From Myxococcota bacterium (lineage in GTDB: Bacteria; Myxococcota_A; UBA9160; SZUA-336), in assembly GCA_035498015.1 (NCBI GenBank), contig DATKAO010000038.1, positions 1 through 36,036 on the forward strand: a stretch of DNA of 36,036 nucleotides, read 5' to 3'. The position numbers and the translations under genes are program-made. Of the stretch, positions 1,037 through 15,430 are shown piece by piece. Numbering within the stretch: the first letter of the stretch is position 1; the number at the start of each line of letters is the position of its first letter. The notes beneath the pieces were generated by a model, which saw only the letters and a program-made list of their open reading frames with translations, had not been told where the DNA came from and made no database searches.

Positions 1037-3280
1037 CTACTGCGGGACTCCGGCGATCTCGAGCCGCGGAGTGAAGCCGCGCTCGCGCAGCCGCACCGCT
1101 TCGTAGCCGAGTGACGCGATCTCGCGGAAGCCCGTGAGATACACGTCGTAGCGCTGCGCGCCGAACTCGTTCCACTCGACCACCAGCGGGTCGCCGGGCA
1201 GGTCGGAGATCTCGGGCAGGAGCTTCTCCGCGGCCTCGCGGCTGTCGCGCGTGGCGACCAGCAGCGCATAGGGCTCGGTCACGAGTGAGCGCAGCGGCTG
1301 GATGCGCTGGTTGCGGCGCTGGAACGCCAGCGTGCGCTCCATCTGCTCCGCGCGCTCTTCCGACGGCGAGTGCAGCTGCGTGGCCTGCAGCGAGATCACG
1401 AGCCGGCGGCGCTGCACGCGGTCACTCGTCGACCTGAACAGCCAGCCGAGCACGGGGATGTGCCCGAACCAGGGCACGAGCTCGGCGTCGTTCGTGGTCT
1501 CGTCGTGCGGCGCCGAGGCGACCAGCACGACCGAGCCGTCGCTGAGCCGCAGCGTGGCTTCGAAGCGGATCTTGTTCACCGTGGGTCCGATGTCGTTCGC
1601 CCCGGAGGTCGACGCGGTCGCGGCGACCGCGGAGACCTCGACCGCGACCTCGACCAGCACCAGGTCGTCGGAGACCGAGACCGGCTTCACGCGCAGATCG
1701 ATCCCCAGGTCCTGGCGCGTGATGTTGAGATTGGTCTGGAAGGCGCTCGACACCACGCCGGGCGTGGTCGTGCTGGTGCTGGGCGGCGGTGTCTGGCTGC
1801 CCGTCGCGGAGGTGTTCGCCGCGCCGTTCGTGACCGGGATGGGCACGTTCTCGCCCGCGAAGACGTGCTGCTCCTCGCCGCTCGCGGCGAGCAGATACGG
1901 GCTCGACAGCGCGCTGAACTGCACCTCGCCCTGGGCGGCCGTGAACTGCGCGCCGCCGGCGGGCGCGACGATCGTGGTCGGCGTGCCGTCGGGGCCGATC
2001 ACCGGCAGGAGCAGCGGCTTGCGCGTGAAGCGGGCCAGGAACGGGCCCGCCTTGGTGACTTCCTGCTGGATCAGCGGCGCGGGGTTGCCGAAGGCCGCGA
2101 ACGCCACCACGTCGTTCACGCTGTCGGGGATGAGCAGCGGCAGGAGCGCGTCGAAGCCGAGGTCGAGCGCGTGAGTCGTCTGCACGTCCCACACGTGCGC
2201 CTCGATCGCGATGCGCGCGGGGATGCGGTCGATCTCGGCGATCACCTCGGACAGCAGCGCGAAGGTGCCCGCGTCGGCGAAGATCAGGAGCGAATTCGTC
2301 GCCGGGTCCGCCGTGACCGTGAAGGTCTTGCCGGGCAGCTGGCTGACCGAAGCCGTGCGCGCGACCGAGCTCGCGCCCGCCACGCTCGTGCGCGGCGGCT
2401 CACCCAGCGAAATACTCGACAGCTGCTGCGCGAGCTGGCTGGCGTCGGCGTTCATCACGCGCACCACGTGCACCTTGCTGTTCGAGCGCTTGGGCACGTC
2501 GATCAGCTCGACGTACTTCCGCACCTCGGCCAGGCGCGCGGGACGTGACTGGACGATCAGCGAGTTGGTGTGCGGGTCGACCACCACCTTGAACGGCACC
2601 TCGGGCCGCGTGTCGTTCTTGCCGCTCTTGCCCGGCTCGAACACGGTGTCGAGCTGCGTGGCCACCTGGCCGGCGTCGGCCCAGCGCAGCGGGATCACCT
2701 GGATCCGCGTCGCGGCGGACTGGTCGAGCGCGCGCATGAGCTCGAGCAGATAGGCGATGCGGTCCTCCGCCGCCGCGATGATCAGGCTGTTGGTCGGCGG
2801 GTAGGGGATGACCAGGCTCGAGCGGTCCGACGGCGCCAGCAGCTTGGCCAGGTCGGCCGCGTTGGCCGAAGTCAGACGCACCATGGTGGTGAGCATGCGC
2901 TCCGACTGCTCCGACACCGAGCGGTGTGCCCAGGGCGCGCTGCCCTTCGCGGCCTCGATCGGCAGCACCGTGAAGCCCCCGCCGGGCCGCGGCACCGGCG
3001 CGTAGCCGATCGACAAGAGGGCTGCGTTCAGCACCTCGAGCGCCTCGGCGCGGCTCACCTTGTCCTCGAGCGCGATCGTCAGGTTGCCGCGCATGCCGGG
3101 GTCGACGATGAAGCTCGTGTGAGTCGCGCGTGCGATCGACTCGATGATCGCGCCGGGCTGCGCGTCGCGGAAGTTCAGCAGGAGCTGATCGTCGCCCGCG
3201 TCCGAGATGGGCGGAGGCTCCTGCGCGCGCAGCACGGCCGGCGCGAGCGCGAGGCAGAACGCCAGCCAGAACCGCAGCAT
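1037..3280 (-). CDS. gspD: GspD-type secretin with a SPOR-like C-terminal domain
   Basis: A 747-residue outer-membrane secretin, the exit channel of type II secretion. Residues 1-19 form a signal peptide. Residues about 30-110 match the N0 domain, followed by three N-domains (about 130-187, 190-265 and 268-360), each with the recurring DPxTNSLxI pattern. The secretin barrel spans about 355-636. It contains FAGENVPIPV, equivalent to the GspD VGxxVP segment, and PWFGHIPVLGWLF near 603-615, the usual secretin end motif. Residues about 670-744 look like a SPOR fold: a YALLVA strand, a helix, then YDVYLTGF and a second helix ending ERGFTPRLEI. Typical GspD proteins lack this. No other gsp gene is adjacent; a GspC-like gene lies at 12445-13236. 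No Shine-Dalgarno is present, but TACTCT lies six bases before the ATG, suggesting a leaderless message. Confidence 0.88.
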   Translation of the reverse strand: MLRFWLAFCLALAPAVLRAQEPPPISDAGDDQLLLNFRDAQPGAIIESIARATHTSFIVDPGMRGNLTIALEDKVSRAEALEVLNAALLSIGYAPVPRPGGGFTVLPIEAAKGSAPWAHRSVSEQSERMLTTMVRLTSANAADLAKLLAPSDRSSLVIPYPPTNSLIIAAAEDRIAYLLELMRALDQSAATRIQVIPLRWADAGQVATQLDTVFEPGKSGKNDTRPEVPFKVVVDPHTNSLIVQSRPARLAEVRKYVELIDVPKRSNSKVHVVRVMNADASQLAQQLSSISLGEPPRTSVAGASSVARTASVSQLPGKTFTVTADPATNSLLIFADAGTFALLSEVIAEIDRIPARIAIEAHVWDVQTTHALDLGFDALLPLLIPDSVNDVVAFAAFGNPAPLIQQEVTKAGPFLARFTRKPLLLPVIGPDGTPTTIVAPAGGAQFTAAQGEVQFSALSSPYLLAASGEEQHVFAGENVPIPVTNGAANTSATGSQTPPPSTSTTTPGVVSSAFQTNLNITRQDLGIDLRVKPVSVSDDLVLVEVAVEVSAVAATASTSGANDIGPTVNKIRFEATLRLSDGSVVLVASAPHDETTNDAELVPWFGHIPVLGWLFRSTSDRVQRRRLVISLQATQLHSPSEERAEQMERTLAFQRRNQRIQPLRSLVTEPYALLVATRDSREAAEKLLPEISDLPGDPLVVEWNEFGAQRYDVYLTGFREIASLGYEAVRLRERGFTPRLEIAGVPQ

Positions 3281-3437: not shown

Positions 3438-4928
3438 TCACACGATGGGCTGGAAGGCGACGAGCGCGTCCAGTGCGGCGCCCGAGCCCAGGCCGTTCAT
3501 CGGCAGCACGCTCGCGAAGTCACCCACGCGGTTGTGGATGGCCAGGTAGTTGAGCACCGCGGCCTGCGCCAGGAGCTCGACGTTGTTCGCGATCGGCGTG
3601 GCGGCGGTCTCGACCGATGCGTCCGGTCGCATGTAGCCGATCTGGTGCGCGGTCGCGGTCGTCATGGCCGGGCGGGCGGTCGGGCTGTAGACCAGCATGA
3701 AGGTCGCCGCCGTGTCCGAGTTGTCACCCGTCCACTGACCCTTGCCGCGGCCGCCGGTCGAGTTGTCGATCTGGCCGTTCGAGGCGAGTGACCCGTCGGT
3801 GATCACGTAGAGCATGAGCGGGGTCGCCTTGCGCGCGGCGTACTCGAGCATGGCGCCCATCATCTGGCCCGCCTGGAAGTCGCGGTCCTCGCCGGTGGCG
3901 CGCGTGCCGTCGTGGTAGTCGTAGCCGCCGTTCTCGATCGTGCCCGCGCCCGCGTAGCCCTGGACCACGAGCTTCATCACCGCCGCGGTCTTCTGGAAGC
4001 GGCCCTGGTTCATGTCGGCCGCCGTGAAGATCGAGGTGCCGGTGCCGACGATGTCGGTGTCGAGGTTCGGATTCACCACGTCGGGGTTGCCGAATTTCGA
4101 GATCAGGTCCGTGGTCTGCACGTAGCCGCAGTGCACGAGCTCCTCGAGGTTCGGATCCTCGGCGATCTTGGTGAGCTTGAGCGCCGTGATGTCCTCGGCC
4201 GCCTTGGCGACCTGGCCCGCCTGCGTCTGGTTGAGCAGTGACACGAGCTGGCCGGTGTCGACCAGGCCCGTCGCGTCCTTGGCCGACGTGATCGTGGTCG
4301 GCCGCACGGTGGGGTCGATCTGACTCATGGGCGCGGCCGAGTTTCCGCCCGAGTCACTCGGGTCGGTGCCGACCAGCGCGACCAGGTCGCCGTTCGCGCC
4401 CGCCTTGTTGATGCCGTACATCGGGTTGTGCGGGTTGTTGCCCGTGTCGTTGTCGGAGCGGGCCACGAAGATGGTGCCGTTCACGTTGGCGCGCGTGGTG
4501 GTCGCGGTCTTCGACTGCATGCCGCGCAGGAACGCGCTGTCGGCGTGGAAGGCCAGGCCGAACTCGGTGTTCACCTGGTTCGCGTTGCCCGGCGTCATGC
4601 TCGAGGGCAGGCCGAGCTTCGAGTAGCCCGAGGCGGTGAGCAGGTCGAGCTGCCCGCCGGGGCCGCCCACCAGCACGTTGGAGCCTGCGACGTTCGCGCC
4701 GCCCGCCAGGTCGAGCACGATGAACGGCACCAGGCCCGCGCCCGCGCGCACCGAGCACACGAAGGTCTGCGCGTTGGCCGAGCGCGCGCCGAACATGCCG
4801 AGCACGGTCGGCGCCATGACCAGGCCCAGGCCGCCCAGGAAGCCCTGCGCCAGCATCTGCCGGCGAGTCACCGGCCGCGGGTGTTCGCACAGGTAGAGCG
4901 GCGAATCGGGGTGTTTTCGAGTCTTCAT
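3438..4928 (-). CDS. DUF1501-like Tat-exported protein
   Basis: A 496-residue protein. The N-terminus has a twin-arginine motif (VTRRQMLAQGFLGGLGL, about residues 20-36) and an Ala-rich stretch ending SANA about residue 53, so it is probably exported folded by Tat. After the signal come LDLAGGANVAGSN and, later, a GGYDYHDG segment (about 335). These resemble the GG-Asp and GGYDTH landmarks of DUF1501 proteins. DUF1501 proteins are usually encoded with DUF1800 or cytochrome-like DUF1549/1553/1588 proteins, and here the two upstream genes are haem-c proteins, which supports the call. The biochemical function is unknown. It lies 33 bases after the LamG lipoprotein gene in one operon. A purine-rich GAGAGGA about 10 bases upstream of the ATG may be the ribosome site. 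Confidence 0.65.
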   Translation of the reverse strand: MKTRKHPDSPLYLCEHPRPVTRRQMLAQGFLGGLGLVMAPTVLGMFGARSANAQTFVCSVRAGAGLVPFIVLDLAGGANVAGSNVLVGGPGGQLDLLTASGYSKLGLPSSMTPGNANQVNTEFGLAFHADSAFLRGMQSKTATTTRANVNGTIFVARSDNDTGNNPHNPMYGINKAGANGDLVALVGTDPSDSGGNSAAPMSQIDPTVRPTTITSAKDATGLVDTGQLVSLLNQTQAGQVAKAAEDITALKLTKIAEDPNLEELVHCGYVQTTDLISKFGNPDVVNPNLDTDIVGTGTSIFTAADMNQGRFQKTAAVMKLVVQGYAGAGTIENGGYDYHDGTRATGEDRDFQAGQMMGAMLEYAARKATPLMLYVITDGSLASNGQIDNSTGGRGKGQWTGDNSDTAATFMLVYSPTARPAMTTATAHQIGYMRPDASVETAATPIANNVELLAQAAVLNYLAIHNRVGDFASVLPMNGLGSGAALDALVAFQPIV

Positions 4929-4961
4929 CCCAGTGTCCTCTCAGAGTCTCGAATCGAAATC

Positions 4962-7127
4962 TCAGTTGATCAGCATGGCGCCGCTGGACAGCACCGCCGA
5001 GCACACGCCTTTGACGACGTTGCGCGTCGTGCCCGCCGGGCAGGTCGCCGCCGTGCAGCCAGCCGTGAGCTGATCGAACAGCGTGTTCAGCACCGGCCGC
5101 ACGTCGGTCTGCGCCGGCTGATCGTTCAGGCCCGTGCCGAACATCTTGTCGACCAGCGGGTCGATGATCAGGTCGCGCTTGGCCTGCGAGTTGAACGCCA
5201 CGTCCGCGGTCGCCGTGAAGTCGAAGCCGGGGAACATCGCGTTGCGCAGCGCCGGCGTCTCGACCATCTGGTCGCAATAGTCGAGTGACAGGCGTGCGAT
5301 GCCGACCTGCTGCGCGGACACGAAGCTGAACGGGTCGTTGCCGACCGGCAGCTGCGTGATCACGTCGCCGAAGGTGCCGCGCACGGTCGTGTTCGACTGA
5401 GTCACGCCGGTGAGCTTCGACATGGTGTCGTTGATCTCGGCGAAGTCGCGCACGCCGATGCCCGGGAAGGGCGTCGCCGGACCCGGAGCCGGCGGCGGGT
5501 TCGGACCGAGGTCCGCGATCGGCAGGCTGTTCGAGCCCAGCGTGTCGAAGAACACGAAGAACGTGTCCTGGTCGGCGCCCAGGTCCTTGGGCACGACCTG
5601 GCACTGGTTCGAAAGCTGCGTCTGACCGCCGCTCGTGATCGGGATGTTCAGGGTGCGGAAGCTCTGGCTGGCGACCGGCGCGACGCCGTTCACTGCGATG
5701 CGGATGGTCTGCACCGAGAAATTGCTCTTGCCCTGGGCGTTGAGCAGCGGCGCGCAGAACAGGTAGCTGTACGCGTCGAACTCACTCACCTGGAACTGGA
5801 TCCAGGAGCCGTTGCCCAGCGCCGTGTCCAGGCCGAAGCGCAGCGTGAACTTCTGACTCGCGCCCGCGAGGTAGTTCTGCATGATCTGCGCGTCGGTCAG
5901 CGCGGCCTTGAAGATCGCCACGGACTTGACCACGCCCGCCCAGCGGCGCGAGCCGTTGGTCTCGCTGCCGATCGAGAAGTTGTAAGTCGGGTTCCAGTTG
6001 ACGAGCAGGTCGGCGCCCGTGGCGTCGGCGTCGTCGGTGAAGACGCCGTTCACGTACATGCGCCGGCCGTGCGTCTGGTCGTAAGTCAGCACGGCGTGCT
6101 GCAGGTTGGCCTGCAGGTCCTGGTCGTCGGGGTTGGTCGCGAACTGCGGCATGCCGTTCGCGTCGACCTTCATCGACTTGGAGCGGTTGCGCGCCACGTA
6201 CTGATACATCGCCTGGCCCAGCATGACGTTGTGCTTGTCGCCGCCGCCGCCATAGCTCAGGATGCGCGCGGGCGCGTCGACCGTGCCCTGCGTGGTGTTC
6301 GCCGGAATCACCCAGGCCTCGATCGAGTACTCCTGCGAGCCGCTGCCCGAGGCGATCTCGTTGTAGATCTTCACCGCGTCGTTCGGATCGGCCATCGCGG
6401 CGCCCTTGGTGAACGCCACGCCGCCGCCGGACTGCCAGGCGTAGTCACCCGACAGGGTCAGGTTCATGGTCGGGCCCACCGTCGCGCTGTCCGAGGCGAT
6501 CGTCCCGGTGCCTTCCTCGAACTTCCAGTGCGCGATCATGCCGCCCTGGAAGCGCCCGCTGTCCATGCGCGTGGCGTTCAGGAAGGTGCGGCCTTCGCTG
6601 GTGACCACGCCCTGCGGAGTCACGGCGTTCGGGTCGTTCGGGTCGGGCGGGGTCGTGCTGACCACCGCGTCGGCCCAGGCCTGGATCGCGGCCTGCATGT
6701 CGGCCGCGTTCGAGTCGCAGTTGCTCCAGCAGAAGTGCTTGTCGTCCGCGAGCCGGCGCACGAGGCGCGAACGGCCCGGGTTGAGCAGCTGCACCTTCTG
6801 GTTGTCGACCACCGCGCGGAACGCAGTCTCCGGGTCGGGGTGGGCGATGTGCGGGAAGCCCGGGCCCGAGCCCGCGTGACACTGCACGCAGTACTTGCGA
6901 GTCAGTACGTAGACACCGGCCTCGAACGCGGCCTCGCCCGCGGCGCCGCCGCCGCCGGGCACGCCGATGCCGACGCCGGCGCCGCCGGTGCCGCTGCCGC
7001 CTTCGTTCGCGTTGGTCGGGGCCGCACCGATCGAGCGGCCGTCGCCGCTTCCGCCGCCACCGCCGCAGCCCGCCGCCACGAGGGCGAGGGCCAGCGCCGT
7101 GAGAATGACTGCTTTTCGCGTGGTCAT
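4962..7127 (-). CDS. LamG-domain lipoprotein with one c-type haem motif
   Basis: A 721-residue protein. The signal ends in LVAAGC with lipidation predicted at Cys21. A poly-Gly linker follows to about residue 66. CVQCH at 80-84 is a c-type haem attachment site, and HPDPETAF nearby is typical of planctomycete-style cytochromes. Residues about 197-415 form a LamG/concanavalin-like lectin domain, starting at MIAHWKFEEGTGT and containing a YVNG strand. The C-terminal 300 residues are unassigned and contain several Cys (for example DYCDQM, GCTAATC). The protein would be anchored in the envelope. The gene lies four bases after the DUF1588-like cytochrome gene and 33 before the DUF1501-like gene, so all three are probably one transcript. 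Pairing of LamG with a CXXCH recalls the LamG cytochromes of Planctomycetes. The electron partner and ligand are unknown. Confidence 0.75.
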   Translation of the reverse strand: MTTRKAVILTALALALVAAGCGGGGGSGDGRSIGAAPTNANEGGSGTGGAGVGIGVPGGGGAAGEAAFEAGVYVLTRKYCVQCHAGSGPGFPHIAHPDPETAFRAVVDNQKVQLLNPGRSRLVRRLADDKHFCWSNCDSNAADMQAAIQAWADAVVSTTPPDPNDPNAVTPQGVVTSEGRTFLNATRMDSGRFQGGMIAHWKFEEGTGTIASDSATVGPTMNLTLSGDYAWQSGGGVAFTKGAAMADPNDAVKIYNEIASGSGSQEYSIEAWVIPANTTQGTVDAPARILSYGGGGDKHNVMLGQAMYQYVARNRSKSMKVDANGMPQFATNPDDQDLQANLQHAVLTYDQTHGRRMYVNGVFTDDADATGADLLVNWNPTYNFSIGSETNGSRRWAGVVKSVAIFKAALTDAQIMQNYLAGASQKFTLRFGLDTALGNGSWIQFQVSEFDAYSYLFCAPLLNAQGKSNFSVQTIRIAVNGVAPVASQSFRTLNIPITSGGQTQLSNQCQVVPKDLGADQDTFFVFFDTLGSNSLPIADLGPNPPPAPGPATPFPGIGVRDFAEINDTMSKLTGVTQSNTTVRGTFGDVITQLPVGNDPFSFVSAQQVGIARLSLDYCDQMVETPALRNAMFPGFDFTATADVAFNSQAKRDLIIDPLVDKMFGTGLNDQPAQTDVRPVLNTLFDQLTAGCTAATCPAGTTRNVVKGVCSAVLSSGAMLIN

Positions 7128-7131
7128 CGGC

Positions 7132-8322
7132 TTAGTTCCCCATGCAATACGCGGCGGTCTCCGCGAAGACCCGCTTCATGCTGTAGTTGTTGGCCTCGAA
7201 CACGTCGGCGATCTGTGAGACCGCCGTGAAGTCCGCGGCCGACTGAGGCGCGTGCTGACACACGCGCGTGAAGACCTTCTGCACCTGGCACTCGGAGAAG
7301 GCGCGGCTCATGCCGACCTCCTGGCCGAGTGTCTGCGCGCCGTGACCCATGGCGTTCGGGCCGCGCCAGCCCAGGTTCGAGTTCGGCCCCACGCGCCACA
7401 GGTTCCACCAGGTGTCGTCGGTGGTGACGTGTCCGCCGGGGAAGTTCGTCGCGTTGATCAGGAACTTGGGCTGCACCTGGCCGCGCGTGAACACCATGCG
7501 CATGGCCTGGTCGTCCCACTGGTAGTAGGCGAACGCGCCCGCGAGCGCGTCCATGCCCGAGTGACAGCCCACGCAGGTGTTGTGGAAGATGCGCGAGTCA
7601 CCGCCCGGGCTGCGCGTCACGTCCTGGCGGATGTAGTCCGCGGGCCGGGTGATGTCGTTCAGCTGCTCCATGTCGCGACACAGGAAGTTGATCGCGGTGA
7701 AGCGCCACATGCGGCGGTTGGTGCCGGCCGAGAAGTAGGCCTGGGCGCCGGCGCGGGTCGTGATCACGCCCGCCGCCTCGGTCGACATGATCTGCGCGCC
7801 CGGCAGCGTGGACTGCGGCACGCCGTGCAGGTTGGCCGGGTTCGACAGGTCCACCATCTGCTGCTGGAGCTGCAGATAGTGGTTGTTGTCGGTCGGCGAG
7901 TACGGCGCGGAAACCACGCCGTTGGGCGCCACGTAGATCAGGTCCGCCGACAGCACCGTGTTGAACGGGACGTCGTCGCGGATCATGCCGATCACCGTGG
8001 CGGTGTAGTCGTTCAGGTCCACGAACACCGACCGCGGCACGTTCGTCCAAGGCGCCGCGAAGTTCTTCAGCGCCGAGTTGTAGAAGGTGGGGTCGGCCAT
8101 GGCGGTGTAGGCGGCGGCGATCGGGTCACCGCCGACGATCTGAGACTCCATGGTCGACAGCACGGCGTCCGAGGGCGGCGCACCCACGATGCGGTCGTGG
8201 ATGCGCTTGGCCTGGTCCCGCTCGGTAGGGCCGGCAACCGCGGACTGGGCGAAGAGCACGGTCAGGCTCAACGCCAGCACCGCGCCGGCTCCCCGGCTGC
8301 ACAAACTCGAAAGGCGATCCAT
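7132..8322 (-). CDS. DUF1588/DUF1585-like c-type cytochrome, exported
   Basis: A 396-residue protein when started at ATG 8322, chosen because AGGAG lies six bases upstream and the next residues form a clear signal peptide ending SAVA. An in-frame start at 8376 would put 18 non-signal residues in front. The haem-c motif CVGCH (250-254) is followed by SGMDALAGAFAYYQWD, matching the DUF1588 pattern CxxCHxxxDPxGFALExxD. The preceding AGVITTRA and NFLC segments also fit DUF1588. The last 60 residues (AFSECQVQKVFTRVC and VFEANNYSMKRVFAETA) look like DUF1585. The canonical DUF1592 N-terminal half is not recognisable. Such proteins are periplasmic cytochromes of unknown donor. It heads the likely three-gene operon with the LamG lipoprotein and the DUF1501-like protein. 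Confidence 0.72.
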   Translation of the reverse strand: MDRLSSLCSRGAGAVLALSLTVLFAQSAVAGPTERDQAKRIHDRIVGAPPSDAVLSTMESQIVGGDPIAAAYTAMADPTFYNSALKNFAAPWTNVPRSVFVDLNDYTATVIGMIRDDVPFNTVLSADLIYVAPNGVVSAPYSPTDNNHYLQLQQQMVDLSNPANLHGVPQSTLPGAQIMSTEAAGVITTRAGAQAYFSAGTNRRMWRFTAINFLCRDMEQLNDITRPADYIRQDVTRSPGGDSRIFHNTCVGCHSGMDALAGAFAYYQWDDQAMRMVFTRGQVQPKFLINATNFPGGHVTTDDTWWNLWRVGPNSNLGWRGPNAMGHGAQTLGQEVGMSRAFSECQVQKVFTRVCQHAPQSAADFTAVSQIADVFEANNYSMKRVFAETAAYCMGN

Positions 8323-8576
8323 CACTGCTCCTGGCGCACGTGTCGGCGTCTGTGCACCGATTGCGCTCGGACCCACTCATCGGCCTGGCGCACACGTCAC
8401 CTTCGTGAGACAGGTCACCAAATTGGCGACAGCGAACCCGGCCCTGCAGATAGGGCCGGAGTTGCGCGCCTGCTGCTCGGAAAGCTCCGTGCAACTGCGG
8501 TGAGGCGAGTCACAAGCCCCACGCCAATTCGGTCGATGAACACGGAATCGCAGTCTCACGAAGAGGCCGGCAATCC
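8323..8576. promoter_or_regulatory. Divergent intergenic region between the cytochrome operon and tlpA
   Basis: This 254-base gap must hold promoters for both directions. I see no convincing -35/-10 pair. It contains an 8-bp inverted repeat (8438-8459), a GAGTCAC copy at 8507-8513, and Shine-Dalgarno sequences at each end (AGGAG toward 8322 and aagagg toward 8577). Confidence 0.5.
8438..8459. repeat. 8-bp perfect inverted repeat (CCGGCCCT-N6-AGGGCCGG)
   Basis: CCGGCCCT at 8438-8445 and AGGGCCGG at 8452-8459 are perfectly complementary around gcagat. It sits in the divergent promoter region, so an operator for a dimeric regulator is one option. A hairpin in the leader is another. No T-tract follows on either strand, which argues against a terminator. 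Confidence 0.45.
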
Positions 8577-9128
8577 ATGTGCAAGAACCGAGGACTCGTC
8601 CGCGCGCTGTTGCTTTCCGCCGCCCTGCTGGCGTTCGGGCTCGCGCCCGGCGCGGCGCGGGCCGTCGAGGCCGGGCAGACCGCCCCGTCCTTCTCGGCGC
8701 ACGCCCTGGAGGGTGACTCGACCCTGAGTCTCTCCGCCTACAAGGGCAAGGTGGTGTTCCTCGACTTCTGGGCCTCGTGGTGCGGGCCGTGCCAGAGCGC
8801 GATGCCGGTGATCGAATCACTGCGCAACGAGTTCCCCGCGGACCAGTTCCAGGTGCTGGCGATCAACGTCGACCAGGACCCGAGCAAGGCCAAGGCCTTC
8901 CTCGAGCGGCGCAAGGTCGGCTACCCGAGCGTCTCGGACCCCGAGGGCCGGCTGCCCGCGACCTACGGGCTCAAGACCATGCCGACCTCCTATCTGATCG
9001 ACCGCAACGGCGTCGTTCGTTACGTGCACGCCGGCTTCCGCGCCAGCGACGTCGAGGGCCTGCGCAACGAGATCCGCGCGCTGCTGGGCTCGCCCGCGCT
9101 GCCGGCTTCGCCCGAGGCCAAGCGATGA
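8577..9128 (+). CDS. TlpA/ResA-family periplasmic thioredoxin
   Basis: A 183-residue exported thiol-disulfide oxidoreductase. The signal peptide ends ARA at about residue 29. The thioredoxin fold carries WCGPC at 68-72, preceded by FLDFWAS, and the cis-Pro loop TMPTSYLID near 137. Family members reduce specific envelope substrates such as apocytochromes, copper proteins or partner lipoproteins and are themselves reduced by CcdA/DsbD-type carriers. A DsbD/ScsB gene lies 4 kb away at 13229-15430. The stop overlaps the start of the DUF4266 gene in an ATGA tetranucleotide, so the two are translationally coupled, which makes DUF4266 the most obvious client. A ribosome site (aagagg) lies 11-16 bases before ATG 8577. 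Confidence 0.92.
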   Translation: MCKNRGLVRALLLSAALLAFGLAPGAARAVEAGQTAPSFSAHALEGDSTLSLSAYKGKVVFLDFWASWCGPCQSAMPVIESLRNEFPADQFQVLAINVDQDPSKAKAFLERRKVGYPSVSDPEGRLPATYGLKTMPTSYLIDRNGVVRYVHAGFRASDVEGLRNEIRALLGSPALPASPEAKR

Positions 9129-9469
9129 AGAGACTCACTCGCGCCGCACTGCTGGGGCTGTGTCTCGTGTCGCAGAGCGGCTGCGCGAGCCTGGGCTGGC
9201 AGTGGGACAAGTGGTGGTCCGACGTGAAGCTCCCGGACTTCCCGGCCTTCGACGAATACACGGAGAGCCCCAAGAGCTACGTGACGATCGCGCTCGAGCA
9301 CGACTTCTTGGTGCGCGTGAAGCCCTGGGAGCGCGCGGTCCTGGCGCGCCACGACATGGCCTGGGATCCGGACGCGCTCGAGGCGGCGCGGCGCAATCAC
9401 ACGTTCTTCAGCAAGGAAGCCTCGATGCCCGGCGGCAGCGCCGGCGGCGGGGGCTGCGGCTGCAACTAG
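9125..9469 (+). CDS. DUF4266 small lipoprotein with C-terminal CGCN
   Basis: A 114-residue protein starting at the ATG of the ATGA overlap with tlpA. The signal ends SQSGC with predicted lipidation at Cys20. The mature part is acidic and aromatic at first. It then shows the DUF4266 core: VKPWERAVLARHDMAWDPD (65-83), an NHTFFSKEAS segment (91-100) and a Gly-rich tail ending GGGGCGCN. The only mature Cys besides Cys20 are 111 and 113 in that tail. DUF4266 proteins have no established function. They are known next to DUF3570 barrels and ApbE-like proteins, exactly as here. The paired terminal Cys next to a thioredoxin gene suggest a redox, metal or modification site, which is inference. The lipobox has Gln at -3, which is unusual but tolerated. 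Confidence 0.85.
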   Translation: MKRLTRAALLGLCLVSQSGCASLGWQWDKWWSDVKLPDFPAFDEYTESPKSYVTIALEHDFLVRVKPWERAVLARHDMAWDPDALEAARRNHTFFSKEASMPGGSAGGGGCGCN

Positions 9470-9507
9470 CAGCCGAGTGACCGGGACCGCGACGGAGGGG
9501 TGGTGAG

Positions 9508-10746
9508 ATGAGACGCTCTCGCAGGGAGAGCCGCCGGGAACGCGCGGCGCTGCGCGCGCTGACCTCGAGCGCGCTCGCGCTGCTCGGCGCGGCCGGCAAG
9601 GCCTCGGCCGACACGGCCATCGACCACTACGAGACCTCTTACAGCTTCTCGACCTACTCCGAGGACAAGCTCGAGAGCTCGAAGACCATCCCCGGCGGCG
9701 AGCGCAAGCGCTACGACATCCAGACCCAGCAGGCCTCGCTCGCCGCGCCGATCACCGAGTGGCTCGACATGTCGATGCTGGTCACGCACGAGACCATGAC
9801 CGGCGCGAGCCCCTGGTACACCACGCCCGACGCGGCCGGCTCACCGATCCAGATCATGTCGGGCGCGACCATCCAGGACACGCGCAACGACCTCTCGCTG
9901 CACGGCAACTACTACACCGACGAGGGCCGCCTGGGCTTCGGCGGCGGCTACTCGAAGGAGAACGACTACACGGCGCTCTCCTTCAACACCGATGGCGAGC
10001 TGCACTTCAACGAGAAGAACACCACGCTGTCCGGCGGCCTGGGCTCGTCGTTCGACACCATCCAGCCCACCGACGCCGACAAGTACCCGACGCGCCCCGA
10101 CTACAAGTCGAAGCAGAGTTACTCGGGCTTCGTGGGCCTGTCGCAGGTCTTCGACCGGCGCTCGATCCTGGAAGGCAGCTTCACCTACAACTACAACCGC
10201 GGCTATCTCTCGGACCCGTACAAGCAGGTGTTCCAGATCGGCGGCGTGCAGAACTACGGCGACTTCCGGCCGGACTCGCGCCACCAGTTCGCCTTCCTCG
10301 CGCGCTTCAACCGGCACCTCGAGGAGACCGAGTCGACGATCCACCTGTCGTACCAGTACTACATCGACACCTGGGGGATCTCGTCGCACACCGGCGAGCT
10401 CGACTGGTACCAGAGCTTCGGTGACTCGCTGCAGATCGCGCCGCACGTCCGCTACTACTCGCAGAGCAAGTCGGACTTCTACGTGCCGTACCTGAAGTTC
10501 GGGCAGAAGGCGCCGGAGAACATGTCGAGCGACTACCGGCTGTCGGCGTACGGCGCGCTGTCGTTCGGCGTCAAGGCCGAGTATCTGTTCCACACGCCCT
10601 GGTTCCGCGACATCGAGTGGCGCGGGAACGTCTCGGTCGAGCGCTACCTGTCGAGCGGAGACTTCTCGCTCACCAGCGTGTCGGTGGCCGCGCCGGGCCT
10701 GGTCAGCTTCACCGTCTTCAGCGTCGGAATAGACGCCAAGTTCTAG
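9508..10746 (+). CDS. DUF3570 outer-membrane beta-barrel protein
   Basis: A 412-residue protein with an Arg-rich n-region, a short hydrophobic stretch and a cleavage-like KASA at about 32-35. The rest alternates polar and aromatic residues in many strands (for example YSFSTYSED, GNYYTDEGRLGFGGGY) and ends in GIDAKF, the terminal Phe expected for BAM insertion. Order and neighbours (TlpA, DUF4266, ApbE) match the DUF3570 gene group. Function is unknown. Two segments, TGAS at 98-101 and SGAT at 118-121, resemble the (S/T)GA(S/T) core where ApbE attaches FMN in NqrC/RnfG. Whether they are used here is untested. GGAGG lies 9-13 bases before ATG 9508. Only a TAG and two codons separate it, in the same frame, from the ApbE-like gene. 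Confidence 0.85.
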   Translation: MRRSRRESRRERAALRALTSSALALLGAAGKASADTAIDHYETSYSFSTYSEDKLESSKTIPGGERKRYDIQTQQASLAAPITEWLDMSMLVTHETMTGASPWYTTPDAAGSPIQIMSGATIQDTRNDLSLHGNYYTDEGRLGFGGGYSKENDYTALSFNTDGELHFNEKNTTLSGGLGSSFDTIQPTDADKYPTRPDYKSKQSYSGFVGLSQVFDRRSILEGSFTYNYNRGYLSDPYKQVFQIGGVQNYGDFRPDSRHQFAFLARFNRHLEETESTIHLSYQYYIDTWGISSHTGELDWYQSFGDSLQIAPHVRYYSQSKSDFYVPYLKFGQKAPENMSSDYRLSAYGALSFGVKAEYLFHTPWFRDIEWRGNVSVERYLSSGDFSLTSVSVAAPGLVSFTVFSVGIDAKF

Positions 10747-10752
10747 CGGCCG

Positions 10753-11709
10753 ATGCTGCTCGGCCACTACCCGTTCCGAGCGCTGGGCAGCCCGTGCGAG
10801 CTGCACCTGTGGGGTGAGTCGCGCGGCGAGGTCGACGCCGTGGCCGAGGCGGCCCGGGCGCTGGTGCTGCGCATCGAGCGCAAGTACTCGCGCTACCGCG
10901 ACGACAGCGTGGTGAGCGAGATCAACCGGAGCTCGGGTGACTCGCGCGGGGTCGAGGTCGACGACGAGACCGCGAAGCTCCTGGACTACGCCGCCACCGC
11001 TTGGCAGCACAGCGGCGGGCTGTTCGACGTGACCTCGGGCAGCCTGCGCAAGGTCTGGGACTTCAAGTCGGGCCGCGTGCCGCAGCAGGACGAGGTGGCC
11101 GACGCGCTCTCGCGCGTGGGCTGGGCGCGCGTGCGCTGGCGCCGGCCGCGCATCGTGCTGCCGGTCGCGGGCATGGAGCTCGACTTCGGCGGCTTCGGCA
11201 AGGAGTGGGCAGTCGACGCCGTCAGCGATCTGTGTCGCGCGCGCGGCGTGCGCCATGGCCTGGTCGACCTGGGCGGCGACCTGCGCGCGATCGGCCCGCA
11301 CCCCGACGGCCGCCCCTGGCTCGTGGGCATCCGCGACCCGCGCGCGCCGGAGCGCGCGCTCGCCAGCCTGCCGCTCGTAGACCACGGGCTGGCCACCAGC
11401 GGCGACTACGAGCGCTGCATGGTGGTCGACGGCGTGCGCTACACGCACATCCTCGACCCGCGCACCGGCTGGCCCGTGCGCGGCCTGCGCAGCGCGAGCG
11501 TGATCGCTCCGCAGTGTCTCGTGGCGGGCACGGCCACGACCATCGCGCTGCTAAAGGGCGCGCCCGAAGGCGAACGCTTCCTCGATGGCCTCGGCCTGCC
11601 GAGCCTGCGCGTGGACGAGGACGGGCGAGTCAGCGGGTCCCTGGCTTCCCGAGCTCCGGGCAGTGCACCCCGGCGCACTGCTCCTTCACGCGCTTCGCGA
11701 GGTCCGTGA
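10753..11709 (+). CDS. apbE: ApbE-like FAD:protein FMN transferase, DUF3570-linked type
   Basis: A 318-residue protein. ApbE enzymes move FMN from FAD onto Thr/Ser of target proteins. Landmarks are LDFGGFGKEWAVD (143-155), DLGGD (172-176), ATSGDY (214-219) and THILDPRTG (231-239). There is no signal peptide or lipobox, and an upstream extension is impossible because the DUF3570 stop lies in the same frame nine bases before the ATG. In the C-terminal metal loop, where ApbE usually has Ala-Asp-x-x-Ala-Thr, this protein reads AGTATT (258-263), so the Asp is Gly259. That may alter catalysis. The last 25 residues are low-complexity Arg/Ser/Pro and overlap the convergent lipoprotein gene by 80 bases, so the native stop may have drifted. 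The gene is in one operon with tlpA, DUF4266 and DUF3570. Confidence 0.87.
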   Translation: MLLGHYPFRALGSPCELHLWGESRGEVDAVAEAARALVLRIERKYSRYRDDSVVSEINRSSGDSRGVEVDDETAKLLDYAATAWQHSGGLFDVTSGSLRKVWDFKSGRVPQQDEVADALSRVGWARVRWRRPRIVLPVAGMELDFGGFGKEWAVDAVSDLCRARGVRHGLVDLGGDLRAIGPHPDGRPWLVGIRDPRAPERALASLPLVDHGLATSGDYERCMVVDGVRYTHILDPRTGWPVRGLRSASVIAPQCLVAGTATTIALLKGAPEGERFLDGLGLPSLRVDEDGRVSGSLASRAPGSAPRRTAPSRASRGP

Positions 11710-12444: not shown

Positions 12445-13236
12445 TCAGGGTCGCTGGAGTGACCCGGGCTGCACGATGACCACGGTGGGCATGCCATGGC
12501 GTTCGATGTCGAGCTTCACCGGCTGGCTGAAGGTCAGCCCGCGCGCCACGTTCATCGCGCGGCCGCTGGAGTCGATCGGCGTGCCCTGGATCGCCACGAC
12601 CACGTCGTCGCTCTGCAGGCCGAGTCTCTCGATCATGCTGTCGGGCATGATGTTCATGACCGCCACGCCGCGCAGCTTGCCGTCGTTGTCCATCACCGGC
12701 GCGAAGCGCGCCTGAGCCGCCAGGTCGGCGAGCACCTGGTCGTTGCTCCGAGCCTGGTCGCGCTCGCTCGGCTTGGAGCCGGGCGCGCTGGCGGCGCCGC
12801 GGCGCGCCGAAGCGCCGCTGGCGGCGCGGGCCGAGGGCCGGCTCGGGATTCCGGCGCCGGGGCGTCCGCCCGGGGCGCTGGCCGGCGGATTGGGGCCGTA
12901 GGCGGCGGGCGCGGGCGCCGCGGGCAGGCTGCCCCCGCCGCCGACCGCGCCGACCGAGACACTGGCCAGGGTGAGTGTCTCGTTCTGCCCGCGGCGGCGC
13001 AGCACGACCGCCTCGGGCTGGATCTCGACCACCTCGGCGCCGGCCACGTCCATGCCGATGCGCACCACCTGCTGGCTGCCGCCGACGCTGATCACGGCCT
13101 GCGAGCTGCGCGGGTCGCTCGAGACGATCGTGCCGAGCAGGCGCGCGCCGGAACGCGATTCGGCCGCGCGCGCGCCGTCGAGTGCCGCGAGCGAGAGCAC
13201 GGCCACGAGCGCCGCCCGCGCCAGCGAGTCACGCAC
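12445..13236 (-). CDS. gspC: GspC-like type II secretion protein (HR + PDZ)
   Basis: A 263-residue envelope protein. Residues 1-25 are a signal or anchor segment ending ARAA. Residues about 31-92 match the GspC homology region: LLGTIVSSDPRSSQAVI, then IGMDVAGAEVVEIQPEAVVL and an NETLTL strand. Residues about 98-165 form a Pro/Ala/Gly/Ser-rich linker. Residues about 187-258 form a PDZ domain with GVAVMNIMPDSMIERLGLQ and DDVVVAIQGTPID. GspC links the inner-membrane platform to the GspD secretin through its HR region. A GspD-type secretin is present at 1037-3280, nine kilobases away on the same strand, with no other gsp gene between. The start overlaps the DsbD gene end by eight bases, so it is translationally coupled to DsbD. 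Confidence 0.75.
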   Translation of the reverse strand: MRDSLARAALVAVLSLAALDGARAAESRSGARLLGTIVSSDPRSSQAVISVGGSQQVVRIGMDVAGAEVVEIQPEAVVLRRRGQNETLTLASVSVGAVGGGGSLPAAPAPAAYGPNPPASAPGGRPGAGIPSRPSARAASGASARRGAASAPGSKPSERDQARSNDQVLADLAAQARFAPVMDNDGKLRGVAVMNIMPDSMIERLGLQSDDVVVAIQGTPIDSSGRAMNVARGLTFSQPVKLDIERHGMPTVVIVQPGSLQRP

Positions 13237-15430
13237 CGCGGGCGTCTCCGGGCTGCAGCGCCTCGAGCAGCGCGTCGATCGTGAGCAGCTCCGAGAGCAC
13301 GCGCGGCGCCGCGGGTGACTCGGGCCGGTAGACGAGATACATGGGCACGCCGGCGCGCCCGAAGCGCGCCAGCTCCTGGCGGATGCCTTCGTCGCGCAGG
13401 GTCCAGTCGGCCTTGAACAGCGCGAAGCCGCCGCGCGCCAGCTCGGCCTGCACGCGCGCGTCGCGGATCACCGTGTGCTCGTTCAGCGCGCAGGTGAGAC
13501 ACCAGGCCGCTGTGAAATCCACGAACACCGGCCGGCCCTCGCGCAGCTCGGCGGCGATCGCCTGCCGGTCGAAGGCGCGCCAGCCCGCAGCCGACTCCGA
13601 GCGACTCGGGTCGGGCGCGGCGGCCTGCGCGCGGAAGACCGGGCGCCCGACGAACAGCGCGAGCGCGGCGACCCCGGCGGCGAGCGCGAGCCCGCGGCCC
13701 GCGCGGTCCGACGCTTGCTGCAGCCCGTAGAGCCAGCACGCGAGCGCGAGCGCGAGACACAGGCCGAGCGCGCCCGCGAGCGCATCGGCGCCCGCCGTGC
13801 GGCCGAAGATCGAGACCGTCCAGAGCGCGCTCGCCAGCAGCGCGAAGCCCAGCCCCGTGCGCAGCGTGCCCATCCACGGGCCCGAGCGCGGCATGAAGCG
13901 CGCAGTCACCGGCGCGAGCGCCACCAGACACACCGGCGCCGCCAGACCGAAGCCGATCGCCAGGAAGATGGCCGCGATCGTGACTCCCGAGCCCGCGAAC
14001 GCGAAGCCCACGGCCGTGCCCAGGAACGGCGCCGTGCACGGCGTGGCCAGCACCACGGCCAGCAGCCCGTCGAAGAAGCTCCGGCCCACGCCGGTCGCGT
14101 TCTGACCCACGTGGGCGAGCGACGACGGCGAGCCGATCTCGAACACGCCGAACAGGTTGAGCGCGAAGCCGACCAGGAGCAGCGTGATGGCCAGCGTGAA
14201 GCGCGGCTCCTGGAACTGGAAGCCCCAGCCCACGTAGGTGCCCGCGGAGCGCAGCGCCAGCACCACGCCGGCGAGCGCCAGCATGGTGAGCTCGATGCCC
14301 GCGAAGTAGCCCGCCGCGTGCGCGACGGTCTCGCGGCGGCTCTGCCGGCCGATGTCGGCCAGCGCGAACACCTTGAGCGCCAGCACCGGCAGCACGCACG
14401 GCATGCCGTTCAGGATCAGCCCGCCGAGCAGCGCGAGCGCGAACGCGTAGCCGAGCGAGTGCGATGCCCCAGCCGCCGAGTCACTGGCCGCGAGCGGCAG
14501 GTCGAGCTGCACGAAGCGCGCGCCGCCGCCACTCTCGCGCAGCTCGAGCACGCCCGCGACGCGCGCGTCGGGCAGCCGGTCGGCGAGTGACTTGCCCAGG
14601 ACCGCGAGCGTGAACGCGCGCGCGCCGGGCGTGGCTGGCCCGCTGGTCGTGTCCGAGAACGCGAGCCCCTCGCTGGCCTCGGGAATGAACGCCGCCGACT
14701 CCACGCCGCACTCGACGCCCGAGTCACTCGTGCCGCACGGGTGCACCGTGAGCCGCGCCGACACGGGCTCGCCCGCGCGCGCCGCCAGCTGCACGTCGTT
14801 CACACCCACCGCCACGCCCAGCGCCGCCGCGGGCCGGGGCACGCGCGCGGCGAAGCGCTCGAACAGCGCGTGCGTGCGCCGCGCCAGCTCGGGCGAGCCG
14901 GAGCCCGCCAGCGCGCGGTCGAGGTCGCGCGAGAGCGAGACGCGGCCGGGAATGCACTGGTCCTTGCAGACGAGGAAGTCGGTCTCGACCCGCACGGCGC
15001 GCGGCCCGCCCGGGGGCGCGAGCCGCACCAGGTCACTCGCCAGGAGCACCGAGTCGGTGTAGCCGTAGCTCGACTGGGCGAGCTCCTCGTCGCGGAACAC
15101 TTCGGGCGCGGGCCAGGCCAGCGGCCCGAGCTCGGCGCCATCCACCTGCCAGCGCACGCGCGTGGCCAGGCCCGAGTCTCCGGGGTTGCGCCAGTACACG
15201 TGCCAGCCGGGGTCCATGTGGAACAGCGCGCCCACGCGCGCCAGCCGCCCCGGGGCGGGCGTGGCGTCGATCAAGAGCCGCACCTCGACGCGCGGCTTCA
15301 CGTCGTCGGAGCCGGAGACGGCGACCGCGGCGGGCGGCACGGGGATCGGCGGCTCGGCGCGCGCGCCCAGCGGCGCAGAGAGCGCCCAGGCGGCGGCGAG
15401 CAGCCACAGGCGAGTGACGGGTGCTCCCAT
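13229..15430 (-). CDS. dsbD: DsbD/ScsB-type protein-disulfide reductase
   Basis: A 733-residue protein that passes electrons from cytoplasmic thioredoxin across the inner membrane. After a signal peptide (1-25), the N-terminal periplasmic domain has HVYWRNPGDSG (77-87), typical of the ScsB/DsbD-2 type, and the CKDQC pair (155, 159). The membrane domain has about eight segments (325-595) with the exchange cysteines in MPCVLP (Cys345) and TPCTAPF (Cys465). The C-terminal periplasmic thioredoxin domain has WCLTC (643-647). All cysteines expected for three-domain relay are present. The gene is divergent from pepP and coupled to the GspC-like gene by an eight-base overlap. Likely clients include the TlpA protein at 8577-9128; that link is inferred. 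I see no good ribosome site before ATG 15430. Confidence 0.9.
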   Translation of the reverse strand: MGAPVTRLWLLAAAWALSAPLGARAEPPIPVPPAAVAVSGSDDVKPRVEVRLLIDATPAPGRLARVGALFHMDPGWHVYWRNPGDSGLATRVRWQVDGAELGPLAWPAPEVFRDEELAQSSYGYTDSVLLASDLVRLAPPGGPRAVRVETDFLVCKDQCIPGRVSLSRDLDRALAGSGSPELARRTHALFERFAARVPRPAAALGVAVGVNDVQLAARAGEPVSARLTVHPCGTSDSGVECGVESAAFIPEASEGLAFSDTTSGPATPGARAFTLAVLGKSLADRLPDARVAGVLELRESGGGARFVQLDLPLAASDSAAGASHSLGYAFALALLGGLILNGMPCVLPVLALKVFALADIGRQSRRETVAHAAGYFAGIELTMLALAGVVLALRSAGTYVGWGFQFQEPRFTLAITLLLVGFALNLFGVFEIGSPSSLAHVGQNATGVGRSFFDGLLAVVLATPCTAPFLGTAVGFAFAGSGVTIAAIFLAIGFGLAAPVCLVALAPVTARFMPRSGPWMGTLRTGLGFALLASALWTVSIFGRTAGADALAGALGLCLALALACWLYGLQQASDRAGRGLALAAGVAALALFVGRPVFRAQAAAPDPSRSESAAGWRAFDRQAIAAELREGRPVFVDFTAAWCLTCALNEHTVIRDARVQAELARGGFALFKADWTLRDEGIRQELARFGRAGVPMYLVYRPESPAAPRVLSELLTIDALLEALQPGDARGA

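Follow-up and report, generated by a model that had tools for sequence, protein, structure and literature searches.

Where is flavin attached to a protein bound for the outer membrane when the flavin transferase encoded beside it has no export signal? The question is raised by DNA of a Myxococcota bacterium (GenBank assembly GCA_035498015.1, contig DATKAO010000038.1, positions 1 to 36,036; this whole stretch of 36,036 nucleotides is called the window below). At positions 8577-11709, genes for a TlpA-like thioredoxin, a DUF4266 lipoprotein, a DUF3570 protein and an ApbE flavin transferase lie adjacent in this order; an earlier reading of the sequence alone had proposed the same arrangement, and Pfam matches and the sequence bear out all four genes as real. 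We consider it fairly probable that the window holds a DsbD-type flavinylation module in which the DUF3570 barrel is loaded with flavin mononucleotide (FMN) in the cytosol before export, and then takes part in an electron route running from DsbD through TlpA and DUF4266 to flavin. ApbE flavinylation is usually described as periplasmic and extracytosolic, with a need for flavin adenine dinucleotide (FAD) outside the cytosol; if the present reading is true, the flavin is attached first and the loaded chain is then threaded through Sec and the beta-barrel assembly machinery, which would be unusual.

A new member of a described gene cluster

Clusters of DUF3570, DUF4266, thioredoxin-like and ApbE genes, with and without DsbD, were described by Meheust et al. 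(2021, eLife, PMC8238504), and the window locus is a new member of this published DsbD-type extracytosolic flavinylation system; the sequence-only reading, which took the function of the gene group to be undescribed, is therefore only partly right. About half of the clusters in that article include DsbD, DUF3570 has two conserved [S/T]GA[S/T] motifs, and DUF4266 has a C-terminal CXC; the DUF3570 protein of Chlorobium luteolum was flavinylated when co-expressed with its cognate ApbE, and flavinylation was lost only if both serines were replaced (PMC8238504). The gene cluster as such is therefore ordinary. The points worth following are a clade of ApbEs without signal peptides, its genome-wide pairing with DUF3570 proteins of the window type, and a conserved signal peptide; in the article's main text no mention was found of a signal-peptide-less ApbE beside DUF3570, of a barrel fold or of a conserved signal-peptide core (PMC8238504), and a later structural survey does not treat DUF3570 (PMC11334425).

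All four genes are on the plus strand. The TlpA-like thioredoxin (8577-9128; Pfam Redoxin/AhpC-TSA, Redoxin at 98.7 bits) has a signal peptide and a WCGPC active site, and its stop codon is overlapped by the ATG at 9125 of the DUF4266 gene (9125-9469; PF14086, 69 bits). The DUF4266 product carries the lipobox QSGC with Ala at +2, compatible with outer-membrane sorting, and its C-terminus GGGGCGCN includes the CXC; its earlier description as a small Cys-ended lipoprotein was correct except for the ending, CGCN, where the final residue is Asn. The CGCN tail is also kept in relatives. Between lipobox and domain (9188-9310) the protein is approximately 30 amino acids longer than most relatives, with one other locus (L027) alike. 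The DUF3570 gene (9508-10746; PF12094, 240 bits) and the ApbE gene (10753-11709; PF02424, 250 bits) follow. A DsbD-like transmembrane thiol reductant donor (13229-15430, minus strand; DsbD_N, DsbD_TM and Thioredoxin_7 domains) is encoded farther downstream. In Myxococcota relatives DsbD lies immediately upstream of tlpA in the same operon; the window DsbD matches this operon DsbD best (1090 bits to its profile) and is a probable ortholog. A complete TlpA-DUF4266-DUF3570-ApbE-DsbD run, with a signal-peptide-less ApbE and a DUF4266 protein of 154 amino acids, was also found on the Vibrio sp. THAF191d plasmid pTHAF191d_b (L223), whose record leaves the run unannotated. Neither DUF3570 nor DUF4266 is covered by an NCBIfam model, and no relative was found in the viral contigs scanned.

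Flavinylation motifs, predicted barrel and proposed electron route

The window DUF3570 protein contains TGAS (residues 98-101; 9799-9810) and SGAT (residues 118-121; 9859-9870), exactly where the sequence-only reading had placed them; Glu95 precedes motif 1 by three residues and Ser101 by six. When the protein was shuffled 20,000 times, 75+2 shuffles had two or more [ST]GA[ST] motifs and only 13 had two within 25 residues; since close pairs are so rare in shuffles, the pair is not a chance occurrence. Of 80 loci taken from named genomes, 75 have motif 2 and all have motif 1, the latter a biased figure as the scan pattern included motif 1; in window-type Myxococcota DUF3570s found by profile, and hence without motif bias, motif 1 occurs in 23 of 23 and motif 2 in 21 of 23. 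Flavinylation at such motifs, which had been suggested for the window protein, was demonstrated experimentally at both sites in the C. luteolum homolog (PMC8238504), and the window barrel is predicted to carry two covalent flavins likewise.

The motifs had also been expected to be conserved only in apbE-linked DUF3570s, an expectation that fails. Both motifs are kept at eight window-type loci that have no adjacent apbE, each with 5.8 kb or more of sequence downstream; seven of the eight genomes have, at another location, an ApbE that belongs to the signal-peptide-less clade. Other Myxococcota have a divergent class, made up of DUF4266-DUF3570 pairs for which neither TlpA nor ApbE was found in the surrounding stretch that was read. 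Its site 1 takes the form DxVSGAS or DxITSAS, and site 2 is often kept as DAITSAT; the ApbEs in its genomes mostly bear signal peptides (a few N-termini were not resolved). What differs between the DUF3570 classes is the type of ApbE. Divergent pairs were seen at loci L182-L195, most with a DxxSGAS site 1 and with up to six DUF3570 copies in some genomes; at L158, L161, L196 and L253 a divergent DUF3570 adjoins a signal-peptide-bearing ApbE, in three of the four together with a TlpA-like gene.

An AlphaFold2 (AF2) model based on 66 sequences predicts DUF3570 as a barrel of 16 strands, as read from the DSSP string, with a mean predicted local distance difference test (pLDDT) score of 92.3. The protein has the expected features of an outer-membrane beta-barrel: an even-numbered antiparallel barrel in the model, an N-terminal signal peptide with an AxA site ahead of residue 35, and an aromatic C-terminal residue, Phe. 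The best 50 Foldseek matches are outer-membrane proteins, nearly all of them beta-barrels (FadL, TonB receptors, OmpG, Occ channels and the Mtr complex), with TM-scores of about 0.3-0.6 that support the fold class but no specific relative; the PDB contains no sequence relative of DUF3570. The model and the Foldseek matches thus agree with the outer-membrane barrel proposed earlier. TGAS and SGAT frame the predicted beta3-beta4 loop (residues 100-121; 9805-9870) and lie at the loop ends, outside the membrane core, not buried in it; by standard outer-membrane-protein topology this loop should be extracellular, because both termini of the barrel would be periplasmic.

In the proposed mechanism electrons would pass from cytosolic thioredoxin to DsbD, TlpA and the CGC tail of DUF4266, a lipoprotein of the outer membrane, and onward to the FMNs of the barrel and an external acceptor. 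The chemistry of FMN attachment is known from the homolog; around it we infer in what order the steps occur, by what route and in which direction electrons travel, and what accepts them. The gene content suggests that the module probably functions in thiol-to-flavin electron transfer, and the idea of an electron conduit fed through TlpA and DUF4266, raised in the sequence-only reading, is plausible. Alternatively, the signal-peptide-less ApbE could flavinylate a barrel that works as a surface enzyme or sensor, such as a reductase of metals or quinones, and that is reduced by external donors and not by DsbD, TlpA and DUF4266. The most conserved DUF3570 residues, the majority of which face the cell exterior in the barrel model, would suit such a function, as would the divergent DUF4266-DUF3570 pairs that occur without TlpA and the flanks of the module loci, where no shared acceptor gene was found; yet the window-type barrel gene is closely linked to tlpA and in many cases to dsbD, and we regard this alternative as unlikely.

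ApbE without a signal peptide and the conserved signal peptide of its predicted substrate

The reading frame of the window ApbE is closed by a TAG three codons ahead of its ATG, and the protein therefore cannot carry an N-terminal signal peptide; neither the signal peptide nor the lipobox of an exported, lipoprotein ApbE is present. An alignment with ApbE structures in the PDB places the active-site motifs GGD and THILDPRTG in the window protein, and window-type ApbEs retain GGD and H-x-x-[DN]P-x-TG, the latter checks being shown for the window ApbE. Throughout the 80-locus set the open frame of ApbE starts at the domain or no more than 24 residues ahead of it (in three of these ApbEs the chosen start lies inside the domain). 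Among 145 ApbEs, a hydrophobic N-terminus, used as a hydropathy proxy for a signal peptide in place of SignalP, is absent in all 85 with a score of 270 bits or more to the window-type profile and present in 53 of the 60 others. Gammaproteobacterial ApbEs drawn by profile regardless of the DUF3570 motif likewise have no clear signal peptide (top hydropathy 1.83 vs. 2.3-3.6 typical of exported ApbEs). In a tree of 104 sequences, obtained by a quick search without bootstrap, window-type ApbEs form one branch (Shimodaira-Hasegawa-like approximate likelihood ratio test 93; 96 with the Vibrio ApbE), and in their D-GG-K (FAD) loop KE replaces KG in 83 sequences vs. 0 of the signal-peptide-bearing ones. 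Strong ApbE and strong DUF3570 matches co-occur both in genomes of Myxococcota relatives (15/15 vs. 0/45; Fisher 2e-14) and in Gammaproteobacteria (21/23 vs. 2/162; Fisher 3e-23).

Two more modules are present in the genome of the window, at positions 1364-3934 of contig C86 (L156) and 685-3222 of contig C56 (L157); in each, DUF3570 is fused to a second, Met/His-rich C-terminal domain of approximately 300 amino acids, with a weak Phenol_MetA_deg match in one of the two, and is followed by a window-type ApbE. Two records of metagenome-assembled genomes titled Klebsiella pneumoniae (L069, L098) also contain the module; their labels may be wrong. Culturable hosts include Zhongshania and Hydrocarboniphaga effusa.

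The second unusual feature is the signal peptide of the barrel. No stretch of DUF3570 is more conserved than residues 16-27, whose mean top-residue frequency is 0.73 vs. about 0.5 for the barrel (66 sequences); in TlpA and DUF4266 the signal peptides are less conserved than the mature parts (0.41 vs. 0.60 and 0.49 vs. 0.75, respectively). The core has the family consensus LxALTxSALALPGI and corresponds in the window to residues 15-28, LRALTSSALALLGA (9550-9591). In leave-one-out scoring with a position-specific scoring matrix of this segment, window-type proteins reach a median of 35.6 bits (tenth percentile 23.1, minimum 12.5), while divergent DUF3570s score at most 10.9 and 2003 background open reading frames at most 14.8; the matrix sets window-type signal peptides apart from divergent DUF3570s, and almost wholly from the background. 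We take this segment to be recognized by some factor ahead of export, and ApbE is a candidate for that factor. Export of the barrel by the twin-arginine translocation pathway was considered and ruled out, as most relatives have no RR motif.

On this evidence cytosolic flavinylation before export is likely. In the cytosol, the signal-peptide-less ApbE would use FAD to place FMN on Ser101 and Thr121 of the DUF3570 precursor, which would then be exported by Sec and inserted as the predicted 16-strand barrel with its flavin-bearing loop outward. In work attributed to Bonardi et al. in 2011, Sec reportedly passes chains bearing sizeable attached molecules, and FMN on an unfolded chain should therefore be no physical obstacle. 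A more specific version, in which a dedicated clade of cytosolic ApbEs loads the barrel precursor ahead of Sec, coordinated by its sequence-specific signal peptide, and the barrel exposes its two covalent flavins on the cell exterior, where a thiol-to-flavin route across the envelope ends, is put forward tentatively, with a probability a little below even.

Several observations weigh against cytosolic loading and the attached electron route. In Bacteroidota, DUF3570 is served by ApbEs that are exported, and the same probably holds for the divergent class; a barrel of this kind can therefore do without loading before export. The cytosolic location of the window-type ApbE is read from its missing signal peptide, and it may have another export route. 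Shared ancestry inflates the co-occurrence statistics, as the Fisher values ignore kinship. Another gammaproteobacterial subgroup with signal-peptide-less ApbE has a different recurring core in the barrel's signal peptide, of the type LAxATCSLLG. In a model of a DUF4266-barrel fusion (an in-frame read-through from locus L105, with stop codons read as Gly), the DUF4266 core reaches pLDDT 84-88, and the CGC tail stays below 50 and is disordered.

Could ApbE then reach the periplasm without a recognizable signal peptide, by non-classical export or by piggyback, and flavinylate the same module there? Most characterized ApbEs act in the periplasm (PMC12052999), and the exported enzymes of Bacteroidota and those adjoining divergent DUF3570s set examples for the barrel family itself. 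However, the entire window-type clade is without signal peptides, the window frame is closed just upstream, the exported ApbEs of the same genomes have normal signal peptides, and Klebsiella provides a precedent for a cytosolic ApbE (PMC12052999); periplasmic loading is thus improbable, slightly more so than the surface-enzyme alternative. A further alternative, in which the target of ApbE is a different cytosolic protein and apbE lies beside the DUF3570 gene by coincidence, would account for the apparent difference in compartment, and is very improbable given the near-perfect genome co-occurrence, the conserved motif pair, and the flavinylation of a DUF3570 homolog by its cognate ApbE in the published co-expression experiment (PMC8238504).

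Neighboring genes and comparison with known systems

Recurring flank neighbors of the module in one gammaproteobacterial group (e.g., miaB) look like local synteny, and a protein of approximately 300 amino acids without Pfam match is often encoded just upstream of tlpA at L071 (8153-9106) and 12 other gammaproteobacterial loci. In the window, a divergent minus-strand cluster (3438-8376) encodes a 414-amino-acid CVGCH protein, a LamG protein with CVQCH and a 496-amino-acid protein with a twin-arginine-like N-terminus; the LamG domain is the sole feature that Pfam and NCBIfam name in it. A GspD-like secretin (1037-3280, minus strand) may share a secretion system with a PDZ/T2SSC protein (12445-13236).

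The closest known systems are the DsbD-type clusters of Meheust et al. (2021), with the same genes, the two [S/T]GA[S/T] motifs, the C-terminal CXC of DUF4266 and DsbD close by; the window locus differs in its DsbD gene, which is convergent, approximately 1.5 kb off and outside the operon, and in the longer N-terminal part of DUF4266. The FMN_bind proteins NqrC and RnfG share ApbE-dependent covalent FMN at an [S/T]GA[S/T] motif; their FMN_bind domains are located at the inner membrane and served by exported ApbE, in contrast to DUF3570 as a predicted outer-membrane barrel with a signal-peptide-less ApbE. The cytosolic ApbE of Klebsiella pneumoniae, which acts on a soluble fumarate reductase, also has no signal peptide (PMC12052999), but its substrate stays in the cytosol whereas DUF3570 is exported. 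Finally, the MtrCAB porin-cytochrome conduits (the Foldseek matches of the DUF3570 model include the Mtr complex, which contains MtrB) resemble the module by analogy only, in combining an outer-membrane barrel with redox carriers in a proposed electron route; the window module has no multiheme cytochrome, and the flavins would sit on the barrel itself. If this is true, the cell would carry covalent flavins on its outer surface and could reduce external acceptors by a means other than cytochrome conduits.

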